Source of the DNA: Candidatus Gastranaerophilales bacterium
GTDB taxonomy: Bacteria > Cyanobacteriota > Vampirovibrionia > Gastranaerophilales > Gastranaerophilaceae
NCBI GenBank assembly: GCA_947589115.1
Contig: CANPZP010000011.1
Location: 1-39,289 of the forward strand
Length of the DNA: 39,289 bases
Direction of reading: 5' to 3'
Shown here: positions 7,374 to 29,284 of the stretch, in pieces
Numbering within the stretch: position 1 is the first letter of the stretch
Layout of the letters: each line of letters begins with the position of its first letter
Made by a program: the position numbers and the translations under genes
Notes under the pieces: model-generated
Database searches by the model: none
What the model was told of the DNA's origin: nothing
Seen by the model: the letters and a program-made list of their open reading frames with translations, nothing else

Positions 7374-8629
7374 ATGACTAATATAAGCGGTATTAATCCC
7401 TACGACGAAAATCAATACAAAAATTCCACACCTGCTGCGCAACACAGTCAAGAAAAATTTGATAATACATCAATATTTTTCAATGTAAATAATATGTACG
7501 ATTCATACAGCTATATGGCAGGTTATTTAGCCGATCAAACATTACAAAACAGTATGGGAGAATCAGTCTTTAGCGGAATGTCCTTAGATGAACAGGAGGA
7601 TTATCTTGAATCGCTTGGGGCTGTCGAAAGTTACGGAAACTATTCCCTTGAAGATAATCAATATACAGAAATAGATATGGGCGACGGTTTTGGTTATTTC
7701 TATCAAAAACATGAAGATAATACCGACGAATTTGTAAAAATATATAAAGATAACTCAGATAATTCAGTAAAAATTGTGCGTGCTTTAGTTGACCCCGAAA
7801 CTTCTCAAGGAACTACAACCGTATTTGATGTAGGCTCAACTGTAAATGTAAATACATATATTGGTGACGAAAAGCAAGGTCAGACAGGAGATTGCTGGCT
7901 GCTTACAGCTATAAACAGCTTAAATATGAGTGAAAACGGAAGAGTATTATTATCAAATGCAATAACCGACAATCAAGACGGTACATATACCGTAGATCTT
8001 AAAGGTACGGGTAAAACCTATACAGTTACAAATAAAGAAATTATGGATGCCAAAAATTCAAATAAATACTCATCCGGAGATTCGGATATTATTTTGTTTG
8101 AATTGGCATATGAAAAAGCTCTTAAGAAGCACAAAATGGCGAAATTAATATTCCGCAAAATATAATAAATACTTCGGAACAGCAAACTCAAGGATTAAAA
8201 TCAATTCACGGAGGAAATTTTTATGACTTCCTCTACCTGCTTACAGGAAATGTAAATGATGACAATTATGAATATAAGAAAAACCCGACCTTAGATGATA
8301 TAAACGACGTTACATATAATATAAAAAATAATCCGGAAAGATATTCATACTATTTTTCACTAACAAAAAATGATGAATCAAATACAATGAACTGCATTAT
8401 CAAAGATGAAGAAGGTGTTTATCATGAGGCAGCTATATCTTTTGATTCACATGCATTTTTATTAAAAAGTTCAAACGATGATATAAATGAACTTGTTCTT
8501 ATTGATCCTTATAATTCAAAAGAAGAAGTTTATGTTCAAAAAGATGAATTTATGAAATATGCAGCCGGAATAGGAATATATGATTGGGCTCCCGAAACAA
8601 CTCCCGAGGAAGAAACACCTAATCAATAA
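7374..8629 (+). pseudogene. Calpain-like (peptidase family C2) cysteine protease, frameshifted
   Basis: Two halves of one protease lie in different frames. The first, 7374-8165, has an Asp/Asn-rich N-terminus without signal peptide and then GQTGDCWLLTAINSL, the calpain active-site motif, with C174 as nucleophile. The second half, readable from about 8140 to TAA at 8627-8629, continues calpain-like sequence (NGEINIPQNIINTSEQQT, GLKSIHGGNFYDFLYLLTG) and ends with the His and Asn active-site region: DSHAFLLKS and LIDPYNS. One extra A in the AAAA run near 8133 (CACAAAATGG) would join them into a protein of about 418 residues. The site is not a canonical slippery heptamer. It is either a true frameshift, a phase-like switch in a very short A-run, or an assembly error. 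The catalytic triad is complete across the break, so decay is recent if real. Confidence 0.8.
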
Positions 8630-9737: not shown

Positions 9738-12700
9738 TTATTCAACAGTATAATCGGTTAGTTCAGGTGTACCAAACATACCTTCAATTTCTTCCAAAAT
9801 AGCGGAAGGTTTTCTTGCATTATTCTTTTCAGCTGCACGCTTTTGAGCTTCTCTGTCTTTTTCTTCCGATGCATTAGTTAAGTGATAGAATCCCGTACCG
9901 GCAGGAATTAATCTACCGATAATAACGTTTTCTTTCAAGCCTCTTAACAAATCACGTTTACCCTCAACAGCTGCTTCCGTAAGTATTCTGGTTGTTTCCT
10001 GGAATGATGCTGCAGATATAAAGCTTTCAGTATTTAAACTTGCTTTTGTAATACCAAGTAAAACGGCTTCATATGTAGCTTCTTGTCCGCCCGTTGCTTT
10101 TACGGCTTCGTTTTCCTGCTGTACCTCTTTTAATTCAAGAAATTCTCCCGGAAGTAATTTTGTATCTCCTGATTCAAGTATTTTTACTTTCTTAGTCATT
10201 TGTCTGACAATTACTTCAACATGCTTATCTGCAATTTCAACACCTTGCGAACGATATACTCTTTGTACTTCATCCACTAAGTATTGCTGAGCAGCTTCAA
10301 CACCATTCAATCTTATTACATCATGAGGATTTAAAGGCCCGCCGGTTAACGGTTGACCGATTTTTATTTCCTGTCCGTTTGCAACAATTATGTTTGAATC
10401 TATAGAATATTTAACTTCTTGTCTTCCGCCCTCTCCGTTTAAATATAAACGAGGAACATCATCTTCAATCTCTATTTCAGCTTTTCCCGAATATTCGGCA
10501 ACAACTGCGGAATCCTTCGGTTTTCTTGCTTCCAAAAGTTCTTCTACACGAGGTAAACCTTGAACAATATCACCTGTCTTTTGTCTTTCAAATACTAATG
10601 TGGCAATCATATCACCTCTTAGTACCAAAGAACCGTTTGTGACTTGAAGCATTGTTCCGGGACTGATTAAATAAGGTCTGCCGACTCTCAATGTTATCGA
10701 TTTTTTATCTGTTTTTACAACCATACCTGATATAGTCGAAACTTCTCCGGCTTCCGATATTATTGCATCCATTTTAATTAAATCGCCAACTTTTACTGTC
10801 GGTTTTGATTTTAAATCTATTACTGTTTCAGAGTTGTCTGATACTAATAATAATCTTCTTACATCCTGATTATTTGATTTTATACTTGCTACCGCATCAT
10901 TTATAGCTAAAACTTGAGTTTTTGCAACGGGAGTCTTAGGTTCAATTATTTGACCCTCTTTTACCAAAAGCTCTGTCTGCATTGATGCTGATGTTTTTGA
11001 TGTACCTTCAACTTCTCTTCTTACAATTAAAGTTTCCAATACAACTATTTTCAAATTATTATCGGAATCAAGTTCAACCTGACCTTTTAAATGACTTAAA
11101 TATCCGTCCATTTGCAATACTAAACTTGTTCTGGTTAAGACACCGCCGTCAAAATTTCTGACCCTTGAACCGTCTTTATATTGTAATTGTGTTACGGGAA
11201 CTAAATCAATTGCTTCATCGGTTGAATTAAATTTAATTGATACATCTTTTGTATCTATATTAAATCTTTGAACGGGTCTTACTAAAACTTGTATCGGTTG
11301 ATTTGATATTGACTTCTCATCTAAAGTTGCCACACCTAAATCTTCTTCTAAATCATCAATTTCAATAGTATCTTTTTCATTATCTAATATTGTAATTATA
11401 GAATCAGCTTTAGCTTTGATTTTAGGAGCAATTTCCGTTCCCTTCTTAACAACTTCGCCTTCATCAACTTTTAATTCACCAATACCGTTTAAGTTGTATA
11501 CTTCTCCTGGTCTTATAATAACTTCATGAATCATATCATTGAATTCTTTTATTTCAACAATACCGTCAATATGAGCATACAAGTCTTTTACAACTTCAGT
11601 ACCCGCCGTTACATATGTACCCGATTCAACCATTTTTAATGCCGAATCTTTATTAACCTGATGAATTTCATCCGGTATAAATATAACTTCTCCGGGTTTG
11701 GTTATAATTTGATTTTCATCAACTTCTATACCGTTATATCTTATTTCTCCCGAAGATGGAACTGTATATTCTTCATCTAACAGCTCGGCAATAATCATAC
11801 CGCTTTCAACTACAGTATCAACAGGTGCTTTAACTATGTATTTTTCACCCGTTTCTTCTACTGTCCATATCTGTTCTTTCTTTGTTTGTTCAAATTTTGC
11901 ATTTGCTGCAGAAATTGAAGCTATTACAATAGTTAACTCTTTACCTTGAACGATTTTCTTGATTTTTTTGCCTTCGAATTTAACATCTTCAACAACAAGA
12001 TTACCGCCAAGTCTAACTTCACCGCCGTGTTCCGAAATAATATGTATTTCAGCTAACTTTTCACCTTCTTTAACGGCTTTTCCGTCCTCAACCAATATTG
12101 TGGAACCGCTCGGTAAATTATATACATCACCGCCAAGTACCCATACTATTCCGTTTTTACTTGCAGTTCTTGAAATATTACCTTGTCTGTCCTTCTTTTC
12201 ATCTGCAACGAAATCTTCAAATAAAATTTCTCCGGATAAATCAGAAGTAATATCTTTTGTGGCTTTTTCAGTTAATCTGCTGCCGTCTCCGCCTGAAACA
12301 GGTTCATATACCGCTATTTTATCACCCTTCTTTATTTCTTGTCCTTCTTGTACATATAAAATAGCACCTGAGGGTATATGGTATTTCTTTGTTTTTGAGC
12401 CTGTTTTTATTTCCATATCAGATTCTTGAACAGTAATTGCAACATTGTCACCATGACGTGTTCTTAAATCTCTTGTAAATATTTTTGTAGCTACTATACC
12501 GTCAACATCAGATATTATTTCTTTCATAGCTCCGGCACCTTTAAATACACCGCCGGTGTGGAATGTTCTCATTGTTAACTGTGTTCCCGGTTCACCGATT
12601 GATTGAGCAGCTATAATACCTATTGCTTCACCTACATCAACAAGTTTTTGAGTAGTCATAGCCCATCCGTAACACTTTTGGCATATTCCGTATTCCAATT

Positions 12701-13586
12701 CGCATGTTAAGGGTGAACGTACCAATAATTGATGTAAATCCAGCGGTTTTATCTTTCTTATGTCATTTCTGTCTATTGTTGTATTTGCAGGAATAATAAC
12801 ATTTCCGTCTTTGTCTTTTATATCTTCGGCAATAGTTCTTCCCAAAAGTCTTTCAGTTAAAGGTGCAACTATTTTTTCACCGTCAGATATATCCGTCATC
12901 ATTATGCCTCGTTTTGTTCCGCAGTCATGATCACGTATAATTACGTCCTGAGCTACGTCAACAAGCCTTCTTGTTAAATATCCGGAGTCTGCTGTCTTTA
13001 ATGCAGTATCTACAAGCCCTTTTCTTGCTCCGTATGAAGAAATAATGTACTCGGTTACTGACAAACCTTCTTTAAAATTGGATTTAATAGGTAAGTCAAT
13101 AATTTGACCCTGCGCATCTGCCATCAAACCTCTCATACCTACAAGCTGTGATACCTGTGATAAGTTACCTCTTGCACCTGAGAATGCCATCATATAAACG
13201 GGATTTAATCTGTCAAAGTTTTCAACAACTCTTTCCGTTAATTTTGATGTTGTTTCACTCCAAGTGTCAATAACTTTTGTATATCTTTCAACTTCTGTTA
13301 TATCACCTTTTAAATATCTGTGAGTTGATTTTTCTATCTCTTTTTCAGCTTCATTTAAAAGTTCTTTTTTATCTTGAGGTACTGATAAATCGGCAATTGA
13401 GATAGTTGTGCCGGATTTTGTCGCATAATGATATCCTAAGTTTTTTAAGTTATCAGCAAGTGTTGCTGTCTTTGCTCCGCCAAATTCAAGGTATACTTGT
13501 GCTAATAACTTATTTATTGACTTCTTATTTACTTGTTCATTGATAAAATCAAATGTCTTTGTATTTTTATGTAGTAATGTATCCAT
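9738..13586 (-). CDS. rpoC2: RNA polymerase beta' subunit, C-terminal part (cyanobacterial-type RpoC2)
   Basis: Carries the C-terminal half of beta'. Near the N-terminus are ARGNLSQVSQLVGMRGLM, the zinc cysteines (C226, C299, C306, C309, counted from the upstream GTG) and the trigger-loop entry GIIAAQSIGEPGTQLTMRT. The loop resumes only some 660-680 residues later at GLPRVEELLEARKPKD. The insertion between (SI3) is therefore of cyanobacterial size, against 188 residues in E. coli; its many short beta-rich units with Gly-Glu turns fit repeated barrel-sandwich domains. The last part (GITKASLNTESFISAASFQETTRIL; GLKENVIIGRLIPAGTG) is the conserved beta' C-terminus. Start: AAGGGTG precedes ATG at 13586; a GTG at 13598 is in frame but lacks a spaced Shine-Dalgarno. 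The gap to rpoC1 is about 20 bp. Confidence 0.97.
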   Translation of the reverse strand: MDTLLHKNTKTFDFINEQVNKKSINKLLAQVYLEFGGAKTATLADNLKNLGYHYATKSGTTISIADLSVPQDKKELLNEAEKEIEKSTHRYLKGDITEVERYTKVIDTWSETTSKLTERVVENFDRLNPVYMMAFSGARGNLSQVSQLVGMRGLMADAQGQIIDLPIKSNFKEGLSVTEYIISSYGARKGLVDTALKTADSGYLTRRLVDVAQDVIIRDHDCGTKRGIMMTDISDGEKIVAPLTERLLGRTIAEDIKDKDGNVIIPANTTIDRNDIRKIKPLDLHQLLVRSPLTCELEYGICQKCYGWAMTTQKLVDVGEAIGIIAAQSIGEPGTQLTMRTFHTGGVFKGAGAMKEIISDVDGIVATKIFTRDLRTRHGDNVAITVQESDMEIKTGSKTKKYHIPSGAILYVQEGQEIKKGDKIAVYEPVSGGDGSRLTEKATKDITSDLSGEILFEDFVADEKKDRQGNISRTASKNGIVWVLGGDVYNLPSGSTILVEDGKAVKEGEKLAEIHIISEHGGEVRLGGNLVVEDVKFEGKKIKKIVQGKELTIVIASISAANAKFEQTKKEQIWTVEETGEKYIVKAPVDTVVESGMIIAELLDEEYTVPSSGEIRYNGIEVDENQIITKPGEVIFIPDEIHQVNKDSALKMVESGTYVTAGTEVVKDLYAHIDGIVEIKEFNDMIHEVIIRPGEVYNLNGIGELKVDEGEVVKKGTEIAPKIKAKADSIITILDNEKDTIEIDDLEEDLGVATLDEKSISNQPIQVLVRPVQRFNIDTKDVSIKFNSTDEAIDLVPVTQLQYKDGSRVRNFDGGVLTRTSLVLQMDGYLSHLKGQVELDSDNNLKIVVLETLIVRREVEGTSKTSASMQTELLVKEGQIIEPKTPVAKTQVLAINDAVASIKSNNQDVRRLLLVSDNSETVIDLKSKPTVKVGDLIKMDAIISEAGEVSTISGMVVKTDKKSITLRVGRPYLISPGTMLQVTNGSLVLRGDMIATLVFERQKTGDIVQGLPRVEELLEARKPKDSAVVAEYSGKAEIEIEDDVPRLYLNGEGGRQEVKYSIDSNIIVANGQEIKIGQPLTGGPLNPHDVIRLNGVEAAQQYLVDEVQRVYRSQGVEIADKHVEVIVRQMTKKVKILESGDTKLLPGEFLELKEVQQENEAVKATGGQEATYEAVLLGITKASLNTESFISAASFQETTRILTEAAVEGKRDLLRGLKENVIIGRLIPAGTGFYHLTNASEEKDREAQKRAAEKNNARKPSAILEEIEGMFGTPELTDYTVE

Positions 13587-13607
13587 ATTTATTTTCACCC
13601 TTATTTT

Positions 13608-15326
13608 TTATGATGCAAAGATTGCATTTCTTACCGTTTCATTAAATATTATTCTTCCGACAGTCGTTTCGAGTCTTTCACCGTGTTCATCACGAACTAC
13701 TATTCTGTCATGAAGTTTTATTACTCCAGTTTCGTGTGCTGCTATAGCATCTTCAAAACTATAGAAGTATTTTAATCCTTTATCAGATTCTTCATTATTC
13801 ATTAACGTTAAGTAATACATCCCGAGTACCATATCCTGAGAAGCAGCGATAATCGGTTTTCCCGTTGCGGGAGCTAATATGTTATTAGTTGCTAACATAA
13901 GCATTCTCGCTTCCGCTTGAGCTTCTATTGATAACGGTACGTGTACTGCCATCTGGTCTCCGTCAAAGTCTGCGTTGAATGCGGTACAAACTAACGGATG
14001 TAATTGGATAGCTCTTCCTTCAACCAATACGGGTTCAAATGCCTGAATACCCAATCTGTGAAGTGTAGGAGCACGGTTCAATAATACCGGATGTCCGTCA
14101 ATTACCTCTTCCAATATATCCCATACTACCGCTTCCGATCTTTCTATTTTTTTCTTTGCGGATTTTATATTCTGTACGAATCCTCTTTCAATTAATTTAT
14201 TTACTACAAAAGGCTTAAATAACTCAATAGCCATTTCTTTAGGCAGTCCGCATTGATTTAACTTAAGTTTCGGCCCTACGACGATTACCGAACGACCGGA
14301 GTAGTCAACACGCTTACCTAATAAGTTTTGTCTGAAACGACCTTGTTTACCTTCTATAATATTACTTAATGATTTCAAGGGTCTATTGCTCGGGCCGACA
14401 ACTGTTCTTCCTCTTCTGCCGTTATCTATTAAGGAATCAACAGCTTCCTGAAGCATACGTTTTTCATTTCTTACAATGATTTCGGGTGCTCCCATCTCAA
14501 GCAATCTTAATAAACGATTATTTCTGTTTATTACACGTCTGTATAAGTCATTTAAATCAGAAGTTGCAAATCTTCCGCCGTCTAATTGCACCATCGGTCT
14601 TAAATCAGGCGGTGTTACAGGTAATACATCCATTATCATCCAAGTAGGTTCTGTATTACTTTCCAATAAAGATTCAACTAATCTTAATCTCTTGATTAAT
14701 TTTGCTTTTCTTTGAACACTTCCCGATAAACCCGGAAGTTCAGCCCTTATGGAATCCGCCATTTCCTGAAGTGAAATTTCGCCCAATAATTCTTTTATTG
14801 CTTCCGCTCCGATTCCAACCTTTAATTGAGAATCTTCATGTTCAAGCATATAATCTTCATATTCTTCTTCCGAAAGTAATTGATATTTCTTAAATTCAGA
14901 ATCGGCAGGATCGATTACAACATAATTATTAAAATATATAACTTGTTCTAAGTCTTTTAAAGTCATATCAAGCAGCAAACCAAGATAGCTCGGTATCCCT
15001 TTTAAAAACCAAATATGACTTACGGGCGCTGCAAGCTTGATATGTCCCATTCTGTGACGTCTTACTTTTGAGTCTGTTACCTCTACTCCGCATCTTTCAC
15101 AGATTATACCTTTATGCCTTACTCTTTTATATTTTCCGCAATAGCATTCCCAATCCTTTGTAGGCCCGAATATTCTTTCACAGAACAATCCGTCTCTTTC
15201 GGGTTTTAACGTACGATAGTTTATTGTTTCAGGCTTTAATACTTCACCGTATGACCATTTTAGTACTTGTTCCGGTGATGCTATACTTATTCGTATATAA
15301 TCAAAATAATCTATACTTGTAGACAA
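13608..15326 (-). CDS. rpoC1: RNA polymerase gamma subunit (N-terminal part of beta', RpoC1)
   Basis: 572 residues covering the N-terminal half of beta'. The zinc ribbon C61, C63, C76, C79 ([19 protein letters not shown]), the lid/rudder region and the catalytic magnesium motif [12 protein letters not shown] are present. The protein stops after the active-site domain at [12 protein letters not shown], the same type of split as in Cyanobacteria and plastids. Most bacteria have one continuous rpoC. Start codon is TTG, preceded by AAAGGAGA at proper spacing, with [20 protein letters not shown] aligned to the usual beta' N-terminus. It lies 41 bp after rpoB and just before rpoC2, one operon. Confidence 0.97.
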
Positions 15327-25331: not shown

Positions 25332-25868
25332 ATGATAATTGATAATAATCTTATAGCATATGATTTTATGAGTGATTTTAACGGGCCATCAAGGTTATAC
25401 CCGAATCGCTCATATGAAACCGGAGTGTATGACGAAGATAAAATGCAATATAAGTTTGGGCCGGAATCTACAACTTATCCTAATTTAACACTGCCGTGCA
25501 ATTTATATGACGAAGCCGGTAATGTTATTACACAAGGGTTTTATATGGCGGTTTTATCCGATAATATGAAATATATTGATTTATATCAAAGTAATGAATT
25601 AAAAGCCAGAGTTAAAGTAATAAAAGTTGTAGAGAAAATGTATACAAATGAAGAACTTGACGAAGAATCAAAAATTATAGCAAAACTTCAGGAAGCTCAA
25701 AGAAAACAAAAATTGAAAAAAATAAAACAGGCAGAAGAAGAATTAATTGCATTCAAAGAAAAATGCGAGGCAAATACTTACGCTGAAATATATGATTCAG
25801 GCAAGGGCTATTACATCCTTAATTACAACAGAATGGGGAAAAAAGCTAAAGGAATTATTCAAAAATAG
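25332..25868 (+). CDS. Hypothetical protein with C-terminal coiled coil
   Basis: 178 residues, not recognised. The N-terminal 100 residues look beta-rich ([35 protein letters not shown]) and could be a small barrel. Residues about 105-145 are Lys/Glu-rich and helical ([33 protein letters not shown]). A short conserved-looking tail follows ([28 protein letters not shown]). No signal peptide or membrane segment, so cytoplasmic. It lies 58 bp before the FlhA_C-like gene on the same strand and could be its partner, but nothing in the sequence proves that. Confidence 0.55.
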
Positions 25869-25926: not shown

Positions 25927-27390
25927 ATGTATAAACCCACAAGAAATATTTTTACTATTAAAACTTCACCATATGACGACAATGAAAAACTTGAAAATTT
26001 ACTAAATGAAATGTCTAAAGAGGGTTGGGAAATATATTCTTTACAGGAGCTTGAAAACGAAGAAGGATATTATTACAACTGTATTTTCATTAAAGAGGTT
26101 GAAAATGATGATTTGTCTGTTAATGAGAATGCTGATTTATTAAATTTTAAATCTAAAATAGAGAGAATAATAAACCCCGAACTGGATCCTTATGAGCTTT
26201 GTGTGGATATACAAAAGAAGATAAAAGAAAAACGTCAAAAAGTTGCACAAATAAAAGGATTAATAGATGAAACATCTGAAGATTCACGCTCTATGCTTAA
26301 TGAAGAAATTTCCAAACATATTAAAGAGCTTGAAGAATTAAAAAAGAAATTAGCTAAAGTCATTTCTCCTGATATTATGGAGCAAAAGCTGGGTGAGAAT
26401 AAAATTACTTTGGCTATTTCGGAAGAATTAATGGACATTTTAGATAATGATAATGAATATAATATATTATCTCAAATAGTACTTGTCAGACAAAATTTAA
26501 CCGAATCTTTAGGATTCATAATCCCCAAAATTAAAATAGAAATTGATGACAGCCTTAATGAAAATGAATTTTCCCTTAAAGTAAGAGGTATAAATGTTAT
26601 TAATTCACATGCCTATTGTGATTATAATATGTTTTTTTCAAATGAACTTAACATAGAAAAATTACCGGATAATTCATACAAAGACGTTGATCCTGTTACA
26701 GGTCTTGATATAGTTTGGATTAACGAAGAAGAATCAAAAGATTTTTGGGCAAAAGGACTTGATACATCTGATTATATTGCACGATTAATTGAATTTTGTA
26801 TTACAAAATATATTGATGATATTTTCGATTATTCGGATATTAACAGGTATATTGAAATTGTAGGAAATCAAAACCTTTATCTTATAGAGAATATTATTCC
26901 CGATTATATGTCTGTAGCGGAATTAAAATATATTCTGGCTAACTTAATAAAAGAAAAAGTTTCAATAAAAGATATTGTTTACATCTTTGAAAAAATTAAT
27001 GATTTTGCGGATGAAACAAATAAAGAAGAGCTATTGGAAAGAATAAGAGTTTCACTCGCAAGACAAATCAGTAAATCTGTATATAATGAAAAAGAATCCG
27101 CAATTATGGCTTATGAACTTTCAAAAGAGAGTATAACTTCTTTTATGGATGAGAAGTCTAAAGATGAAGTAATAAGAATTGAAAGCGGCAAAGTGGAAGC
27201 ATTAATAAATACTATTAAGAAAAAAGTAAAAAAATACTCTCCGGATGCAAAAGAAATAGTTTTAATTGCACCTATGAAAATAAGGCATATTATTTATTTA
27301 ATACTTTCTCAAATGATGCCGAATCTGAGAGTTATAGCAAGAGAAGAACTTTTATTCGAATATCCTTTAAAAGTTCTTGCTTCAATATAA
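25927..27390 (+). CDS. Soluble FlhA/FHIPEP cytosolic-domain protein with N-terminal DUF4177-like domain
   Basis: 487 residues with no membrane segment. Residues about 10-57 (EKLENLLNEMSKEGWEIYSLQELENEEGYYYNCIFIKE) resemble DUF4177. A coiled coil follows at about 90-145. From about 158 to the end the sequence follows the FlhA/InvA/LcrD cytoplasmic domain: LSQIVLVRQNLTESLGFIIPKIKIE; NENEFSLKVRGINV; DPVTGLDIVWINEEE; LYLIENIIPDYMSVAELKYIL; LIKEKVSIKDIVYIFEKI; ELLERIRVSLARQIS; and the last strand and helix REELLFEYPLKVLASI. In flagella and type III secretion this part forms the nonameric export-gate ring under a membrane domain of eight helices; here that membrane part is absent. No other flagellar or secretion gene is in the window. 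ATG follows GAGGA. Domain call by memory of the family; function unknown. Confidence 0.8.
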   Translation: MYKPTRNIFTIKTSPYDDNEKLENLLNEMSKEGWEIYSLQELENEEGYYYNCIFIKEVENDDLSVNENADLLNFKSKIERIINPELDPYELCVDIQKKIKEKRQKVAQIKGLIDETSEDSRSMLNEEISKHIKELEELKKKLAKVISPDIMEQKLGENKITLAISEELMDILDNDNEYNILSQIVLVRQNLTESLGFIIPKIKIEIDDSLNENEFSLKVRGINVINSHAYCDYNMFFSNELNIEKLPDNSYKDVDPVTGLDIVWINEEESKDFWAKGLDTSDYIARLIEFCITKYIDDIFDYSDINRYIEIVGNQNLYLIENIIPDYMSVAELKYILANLIKEKVSIKDIVYIFEKINDFADETNKEELLERIRVSLARQISKSVYNEKESAIMAYELSKESITSFMDEKSKDEVIRIESGKVEALINTIKKKVKKYSPDAKEIVLIAPMKIRHIIYLILSQMMPNLRVIAREELLFEYPLKVLASI

Positions 27391-27416
27391 AAAAGGAGCC
27401 AATCGGCTCCTTTTTT
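27389..27416. terminator. Bidirectional intrinsic terminator
   Basis: AAAAAAGGAGCC and GGCTCCTTTTTT form a 12-bp stem with an AATC loop. It overlaps the last stop codon of the FlhA_C-like gene and abuts the stop of the convergent gene at 27415, serving both strands. Confidence 0.9.
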
Positions 27417-28341
27417 ATTTCTTATTTGCCGTTTCTTTCGGTTTATCTGACTTTGAACAATCTTTATTGCATTCTTTTTTACTTTTATCAAATAACTTTG
27501 AACTTAATTTATTGGCAATCGGGGTAACAACAACCGGCCCTAAGTATCTGTATATAATACCGAAGAGTACCAGTGTTTTTAATTTATTAAATCCGCCGAA
27601 TGAATTATTTGCTTCTATCCTTGCTGCGGATTTTGAATATACATCGTCCACAATACCTTTTACTGTTTCAGCTGCTTTTTGGCAATTGCCTTTATTATCA
27701 GTTATAGCAACTTTAACCGACTTTGCAACTTCATCTAATTTATCATGAGTAATTTGAAATGCTTTTGTTTTTCCTTCTTCACCCACAATATTTTTTAATT
27801 GTGTTGACATTAAATTAACAACATCATCCACACCTTGGGCAGCCTTTTCTCCTGTTTGCGATGCAGCTTCAGAAACCTTTTCCAACAATTTACCCATTTC
27901 GGCTTCTTTTGTTTTTGCTCCCAATTTCTTATAAAAATCACTGTGTTTTGCAAAATAATGTTCGGTAAATTTATTTACAAAACTTGAAACTTTATCATCC
28001 AATAAATATGCACCGGCTGTTGATACTCCCAATGTTAAAGTATCATTTATAACCATCTGCGGCTTCTGTTCCTTCTTGATTTTCTTATTAGTTAAAGTAC
28101 CTATCATATAAAATCCTGATAAGAAAATACTTTCCATTGTTAATAAATGAGTAAAGGTTCTGTTTGATTTACTGAAATTTTTTATAACATTTTGGAAACC
28201 TTTAGTATCAGCCAGCTTAGTATAAAATTTAGACATTTCTTTAATCGGTAAAGAAACACCGCCTTTAAACGTCGGAGCTTTTGAATTTTTTAAAGTATTT
28301 CCGTTATATTTATTATATTGAGATATACTATTTATTTTCAT
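27415..28341 (-). CDS. Hypothetical protein with N-terminal TFKGG motif
   Basis: 308 residues, not recognised. A short polar N-terminus leads to APTFKGGVSLP (about residues 22-32); a hydrophobic segment follows at about 66-82 (LLTMESIFLSGFYMIGTL), and another near 257-278 (LKTLVLFGIIYRYLGPVVVTPIA). The middle is helical and charged, and the tail is Lys-rich with two cysteines. No signal peptide. It overlaps the upstream gene by 14 bp, so the two are co-translated. Both share a (T/S)FKG motif after a polar N-terminus, suggesting that they work together. Could be membrane-associated. Confidence 0.65.
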   Translation of the reverse strand: MKINSISQYNKYNGNTLKNSKAPTFKGGVSLPIKEMSKFYTKLADTKGFQNVIKNFSKSNRTFTHLLTMESIFLSGFYMIGTLTNKKIKKEQKPQMVINDTLTLGVSTAGAYLLDDKVSSFVNKFTEHYFAKHSDFYKKLGAKTKEAEMGKLLEKVSEAASQTGEKAAQGVDDVVNLMSTQLKNIVGEEGKTKAFQITHDKLDEVAKSVKVAITDNKGNCQKAAETVKGIVDDVYSKSAARIEANNSFGGFNKLKTLVLFGIIYRYLGPVVVTPIANKLSSKLFDKSKKECNKDCSKSDKPKETANKK

Positions 28342-29284
28342 TTCTTGCTACTCCCGAAAATGAACTAAAAACTTTTTCATCTTTTTGTGTAGGTAACACA
28401 TCATAATTTAGTTGTTTAAGCAAATTAGTATCCTGAGGTTTAGCAGGGAGCATTCTTTTACCCATTAAACCCAAAAGAATAGGCACCATTGCAACCGTGA
28501 TTTCAGCTCTTGCCGGCATAAATATCGGCTGGAACAATTTATCCATAACATTTTTTGCCGTTTTTTCATAGTTATTAAGAATTTTTTGATTCTTAATACC
28601 GTTTACAACAGTTTCTTCTATTTCAGGACATTTTTCAGATAATAAATGTTTTACACCTTTTATCGCTTTATTACTTCCGTTTGAAATCATCGAAAGATTT
28701 AATTTATCACCAAGTGTAAATTCTTTTATAAAGCCGGCTAATTTAATATCTTTTTCTTTCCCGCTTGCAAGTAATTTTTCAGAGAAATCGGCAAGTCCTT
28801 TAACACTGTTTTTTACTGCGTTTGTACAAGTTTCTTTTACATCGGCAGGTATTTCAAATGCCTTGTGTTTTTGAGATTGTTTAACAGCTTTTGCAATCGG
28901 AGTACCGACTAAAGTTGTCATCCCTAACCCTATTAATCCTGAAGATATTGATTTTGCGGCTTGATAAGAACACTTTTCTTTATCTTCTTCTGTTTTTGCC
29001 GTTGCAAGTATTGTTGCAGGTCTTGCGCCGCAAGTAATAAATATTGCAAATATTGCTTCGGCTATTAACGGGGACCAACTTGCAAACTGTCCGACGTAAT
29101 GCAAAATCGGCGCCCCCTTAAAACTCACACGACCATCAGAATTACTCTTGATGGTCGTGTTTATTTTTTCATAATTATTTTGTTTTAAATTGCTTCTGTC
29201 ATGTACACAGCTTTTCACACCCGCAGAAGAACTTTCCATTCCCCTTTTTCGATAGTGCCCTGTATTTATTAAATTAACTTTCAT
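28328..29284 (-). CDS. Hypothetical protein with SFKGAP motif
   Basis: 318 residues, not recognised. A polar, basic N-terminus of about 50 residues precedes RVSFKGAPILHYVGQFASWSPLIAEAIFAIFITCGARPATIL, the motif followed by a hydrophobic stretch. A second hydrophobic part is near 100-115 (SSGLIGLGMTTLVGTPI) and a third near 262-275 (ITVAMVPILLGLMG). Other parts are helical and Lys-rich. No signal peptide. It overlaps the next gene by 14 bp. A perfect 12-bp hairpin lies inside the coding sequence just before the FKG motif. A -10-like TATAAT at 29356-29361 (-) could drive the pair. Confidence 0.65.
   Translation of the reverse strand: MKVNLINTGHYRKRGMESSSAGVKSCVHDRSNLKQNNYEKINTTIKSNSDGRVSFKGAPILHYVGQFASWSPLIAEAIFAIFITCGARPATILATAKTEEDKEKCSYQAAKSISSGLIGLGMTTLVGTPIAKAVKQSQKHKAFEIPADVKETCTNAVKNSVKGLADFSEKLLASGKEKDIKLAGFIKEFTLGDKLNLSMISNGSNKAIKGVKHLLSEKCPEIEETVVNGIKNQKILNNYEKTAKNVMDKLFQPIFMPARAEITVAMVPILLGLMGKRMLPAKPQDTNLLKQLNYDVLPTQKDEKVFSSFSGVARNENK
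29127..29160. repeat. Perfect 12-bp inverted repeat inside a coding sequence
   Basis: ACACGACCATCA (29127-29138) and TGATGGTCGTGT (29149-29160) pair perfectly around a 10-base loop. It codes for about residues 42-53 of the minus-strand protein, just before the SFKG motif. On the plus strand it is followed by a T-rich run, like a terminator facing antisense RNA. Confidence 0.75.

Follow-up and report, generated by a model that had tools for sequence, protein, structure and literature searches.

What would a cell do with the cytosolic domain of FlhA freed from its membrane half? To our knowledge, FlhA/SctV is a single membrane-anchored nonamer in the systems described so far. The gene that raises this question lies in a stretch of 39,289 nucleotides, referred to here as the window, from a member of the Gastranaerophilales, a non-photosynthetic cyanobacterial order of gut and aquatic bacteria. 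The first-pass annotation, made from the sequence of the window, had read the gene as an FlhA cytosolic domain (FlhA_C) behind a small domain and a coiled coil, and had supposed a docking platform reused for another purpose.

Architecture of the stand-alone protein

The gene and the parts of its product are located as follows.

25927 to 27390, forward strand: gene of the stand-alone FlhA_C protein (487 aa), from the ATG start through the stop codon
25939 to 26103, forward strand: β-α-β-β domain, aa 5-59, weakly DUF4177-like
26188 to 26361, forward strand: predicted helical hairpin replacing the FlhA membrane domain, aa 88-115 and 118-145
26395 to 27387, forward strand: complete FlhA_C domain, subdomains D1-D4, aa 157-487, from profile and predicted fold

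A Pfam search aligned residues 134-475 with positions 310-652 of the 657 in the FHIPEP profile (PF00771; E=5.9e-52; a score of 177.5 bits where 29.1 is the cut-off), and the NCBIfam model TIGR01398 FlhA matched with E=2.4e-47. Solved FlhA_C domains also matched the protein by sequence, that of B. subtilis (3mix) with E=1.7e-27. An AlphaFold2 model built with 41 homologues (mean pLDDT 79, pTM 0.66) reached a pLDDT of 83-94 across most of the FlhA_C part, and the predicted fold agreed with H. pylori FlhA_C (3myd) with Z=30.5 and 3.2 Å over 328 residues. The assignment of the C-terminal ~330 residues to FlhA_C, with all of D1-D4, was therefore confirmed. As the FHIPEP match begins at position 310 of 657, the N-terminal membrane domain is missing from it. 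No membrane segment was found in the protein, whose highest 19-residue hydropathy mean was 1.45. As judged from the profile and the model, the protein is a soluble FlhA_C/SctV_C domain whose membrane half has been replaced, in agreement with the earlier reading.

Folded alone, the N-terminal domain was predicted as β-α-β-β with a pLDDT of 90, and its invariant residues are L25, L26, N27, M29, G33, W34, Y37, E41, I53 and F54. It had been described as DUF4177-like and shares the LNxMxxxGWxxY-type core of DUF4177 (PF13783), but its match (E=0.03, 15 bits) lies under the Pfam cut-off of 25, as does the best among 18 orthologues (E=0.0033). DUF4177 proteins over the cut-off were not found in the window's own genome, and a profile of the N-terminal domain matched no PDB sequence. 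The nearest folds were not significant either, with a best Foldseek E of 0.038 and a best Z of 6.3 for the C-terminal domain of KCTD5; dodecins ranked below this. A low-confidence stretch of the AlphaFold2 model separates the domain from the helical segment. The helical nature of this segment stood, but the predicted form is a two-helix hairpin and not the coiled coil first proposed. Kinship of the hairpin with PadR (Z 8.0) was rejected, as a helical hairpin is a common arrangement.

Distribution, origin and functional residues

The stand-alone FlhA_C was identified in 76 of the 81 Gastranaerophilales genomes of a class sample of 98, and in none of its 17 other genomes. A phylum sample of 292 genomes, which overlaps in part with the class sample, gave 152 matching genomes at E <= 1e-10: 5 elsewhere in the class, 16 outside the class and, as the remainder counted from the table, 131 in the order. 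The stand-alone protein was present in 130 of these 131, and was not found in the sampled rest of the class and phylum. The exception, G042, is a 98% complete draft that contains FlhA2 and no stand-alone gene, where a gap is possible; a second draft, G307, contains the stand-alone gene and no FlhA, which may be an assembly gap. Scanning GTDB contigs gave 80 loci, mostly titled Gastranaerophilales and otherwise mainly uncultured bacteria, with a few other labels. The paralogue is thus a single conserved family kept by almost every sampled member of the order. The dN/dS against same-genus copies was 0.07-0.11, a rough value with dS near saturation, which indicates that the gene is maintained. 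The missing membrane half might suggest a decaying FlhA fragment, but this is refuted by the conservation: such constraint, a length of about 490 aa with the same architecture across the order and an invariant residue set of its own leave that reading next to no credibility.

In a maximum-likelihood tree of the C-domains, the stand-alone family formed one clade (100/100) on a long stem branch (1.04). A 100/100 branch set this family and FlhA2, the FlhA of the second export system in these genomes, apart from FlhA1 and from FlhA of Salmonella and Bacillus, a placement to be taken with caution given the long branches. FlhA2 is the nearest paralogue (about 28% identity), and the two have in common the D1/D3 core and the linker motif PxxMYxxLG, whereas FlhA2 has a membrane domain. 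The segments that bear on ancestry and function are as follows.

26326 to 26400, forward strand: segment that aligns with the linker of FlhA2 (FlhA2 LENVKQNMQDLVNPNRMYERLG, stand-alone LEELKKKLAKVISPDIMEQKLG)
26419 to 26427, forward strand: S-E-E (aa 165-167) at the GYx of the GYxLxP switch, by residue mapping
26689 to 26703, forward strand: chaperone-pocket segment, aa 255-259, with D456 kept (D255) and F459 replaced by T258

The FlhA2-alignable segment is a candidate counterpart of the ring-supporting linker, with no firm equivalents of E351/W354/D356. From these likenesses we infer a duplication of the FlhA2 linker and C-domain, which would have acquired a new N-terminus.

In Salmonella, the open-close motion is driven by the GYXLI motif (PMC9431611), and the chaperone pocket is lined by D456/F459/T490 (PMC8166844). 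The residues of 20 family sequences were mapped on the Salmonella FlhA numbering. G368 was replaced by S in 20/20 sequences and Y369 by E/D in 19, and the switch is accordingly absent. D456 was kept in 19/20, the F459 position was occupied by T (13), S (4) or N (3), and T490 was mostly R/K/S, so the D456/F459/T490 dimple is not retained as a set; in FlhA2, by contrast, the pocket still has an aromatic residue and in most cases T490. The family further retains R391, G399, P403, W465, E559 and R579, and has gained an invariant W at position 475. As the switch and pocket residues are replaced throughout the family, a canonical chaperone-dock role appears unlikely, which weakens the proposed platform as far as the docking of chaperone-substrate complexes is concerned.

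Conservation within the stand-alone family was highest in D3 (56%) and lowest in D4 (33%). The FlhA2 comparison (sequences L001, L086-L091, L100-L103 and L188-L204) showed a D3 identity of 91-93% between genera of the order against about 69% for the membrane domains. The ratio of D3 difference to membrane-domain difference was 0.20 for FlhA2 of the order, 1.05 for FlhA2 of other orders and 1.32 for FlhA1. D2 is relaxed in the FlhA2 of the order while D3 is almost frozen, a pattern not seen in the other FlhA groups. The freeze was considered as proof of a contact with the stand-alone protein, a reading weakened by the order members without the stand-alone gene, in which FlhA2 D3 is equally frozen.

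The second export system and the gene neighbourhood

The remark that no flagellar or secretion gene lies nearby applies to the window, but not to the genome. A 700-aa FlhA (FlhA2) is encoded there with FliI, FliH and a FliG-like ORF adjoining, in a cluster comprising rod-type FlgG/F, FlgC, FlgB-like, FliE, FliF, FliG-like, FliH, FlhA and FliI. FliM/N-like, FliO, FliP, FliQ, FliR and FlhB are also encoded in the genome, and the match to FliJ was weak. This export and basal-body set spans G000:C13 (L033, L034), G000:C5 (L104) and G000:C61:1645-2670. Neither flagellin nor FlgD was found in the genome, and FlgD is missing from the sampled genomes of its genus. FlgE_D2 (PF07559) was unsuitable as a hook probe, as it matched nothing in any relative nor in B. 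subtilis.

FlhA and FliP of the filament-less system occur through most of the order; the second-system FlhA (about 670-740 bits) was found throughout this order, several further orders have it too, and another FlhA (about 855-890 bits) was found in most order genomes having flagellin. Counted from the tables, flagellin is missing from 48 of the 76 genomes with the stand-alone gene, and the second system is therefore the sole export system of its type seen there. A full FlhA is present in nearly all sampled carriers (exception G307), mostly with the remaining flagellar-type export apparatus. This, and the fact that the closest relative is FlhA2, does not support the idea of a domain lifted out of any secretion context. 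The observations direct attention to a second export machine of flagellar type, so far little noticed, that is kept order-wide even where flagella were lost; earlier genome papers took these genes in aflagellate members for incomplete flagellar sets (PMC3787301, PMC4040986). An SLT lytic transglycosylase gene (L067:11484-12101, reverse strand) lies within the second-system basal-body cluster of G064.

Immediately upstream of the stand-alone gene lies one further ORF.

25332 to 25868, forward strand: 178-aa ORF, no family match

About 40 loci, all of the nearest clade, have this ORF ahead of the stand-alone gene; 25 loci of another clade have a different ORF upstream, and a third group has an OmpH-like gene and other genes. 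No conserved neighbourhood with export genes was found, as the neighbours vary between clades. They are export genes in G064 and G069 only, two genomes of one genus, where the stand-alone gene is followed by fliJ-fliK-flgD-flgE on the same strand (L066:5889-11576, L068); the locus includes a gap of 147 bp, and infC/rplT lie upstream. Because FlgD occurs once there, these are the hook genes of the ordinary flagellum. The adjacency may be chance, and was rejected as proof of a hook role since only two close genomes have it.

Two ORFs on the reverse strand of the window (27415-29284) have no significant family match and share an N-terminal FKG motif, and similar ORFs adjoin the stand-alone gene in related genomes. 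FKG as a secretion signal was discarded: some enrichment was seen in the first 60 residues of neighbouring ORFs, but many matches were enzymes with no relation to one another or came from a single neighbour family that recurs. In the window, two adjacent ORFs (9738-13598 and 13608-15326, reverse strand) encode RNA polymerase beta-prime, with Pfam domains 1-3 and 3-5, as in Cyanobacteria, where rpoC is split. An ORF at 7374-8165 on the forward strand matched the calpain family of cysteine proteases (PF00648, E=1.5e-6).

Proposed role and relation to known systems

We tentatively propose, as the likeliest of the readings considered, that the stand-alone protein is an accessory subunit of the filament-less second export system, soluble and with a role in docking or regulation. 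The link to this system is drawn from ancestry and co-occurrence, not from synteny. The protein would act at, or assembled with, the cytosolic face of the system, either as a ring of its own or as part of the FlhA2 ring or a layer on it, with D1/D3 and the linker-like segment as the contacts; its N-terminal domain and hairpin might recruit a cargo, a regulator or a partner from the ATPase complex. As the open-close switch and the pocket are lost, it would probably be a fixed adaptor or regulator rather than a cycling chaperone dock. FlhA2 occurs without the stand-alone gene in other orders and in G042, and the protein is thus not needed for the second system everywhere; the variable neighbourhood and G307 also speak against an accessory role. 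A bolder and rather doubtful version is an order-wide filament-less export system with a soluble second FlhA_C ring part carrying its own cargo-recruiting domain, that is, a two-component cytosolic gate, of which we found no description among flagella or injectisomes.

Reuse for another purpose, as first suggested, may still apply, although it is a less simple reading. One form would be an export-independent scaffold, a homo-oligomeric cytosolic ring whose N-terminal domain recruits an unrelated partner. The lack of conserved export neighbours, the long stem, the loss of the chaperone-binding residues and G307 favour this, but the sampled occurrence is confined to a lineage with the second export system, an observation confounded by shared ancestry, and we regard a scaffold as somewhat improbable. 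A protein that has lost the switch and the pocket but kept the core would also suit a decoy or inhibitor that binds FliJ, FlhB or export chaperones off the membrane and outside the ring, preventing early firing of the flagellum or the second system. The binding site of FliJ homologues is the cleft formed by the D4 domains of adjacent subunits (PMC9431611), and fliJ follows the gene in two genomes; D4, however, is the least conserved subdomain, and the fliJ adjacency is confined to one genus and involves the other system, which makes a decoy unlikely. Service to the ordinary flagellum at the hook stage, as the same adjacency might imply, is highly improbable given the flagellin-free carriers, the lack of FlgD in the window's own genus and the grouping with FlhA2, not FlhA1.

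If the accessory-subunit reading holds, the ring fold would prove separable as an accessory part, in the form of a soluble paralogue that is conserved although it has no chaperone pocket; no FlhA paralogue of this kind was found described in our literature searches. As far as the available part of the source extends, the filament-free hook-basal-body export complexes of Buchnera aphidicola (PMC8109811) are alike in that export and basal-body genes are kept without motility, and differ in that it mentions no soluble FlhA_C paralogue. The stand-alone protein resembles the FlhA_C structures (3a5i, 3mix, 3myd) in all four subdomains, with about 20% identity and Z 27-30, but is without the membrane domain, has GYxLxP, F459 and T490 replaced, and has an added N-terminal domain and hairpin. 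The injectisome cytosolic domains of SctV/CdsV/InvA/MxiA, several of which have been solved as nonamers, share the same fold (Z 23-30), whereas their sequences are more distant and the native protein is fused to a membrane domain.
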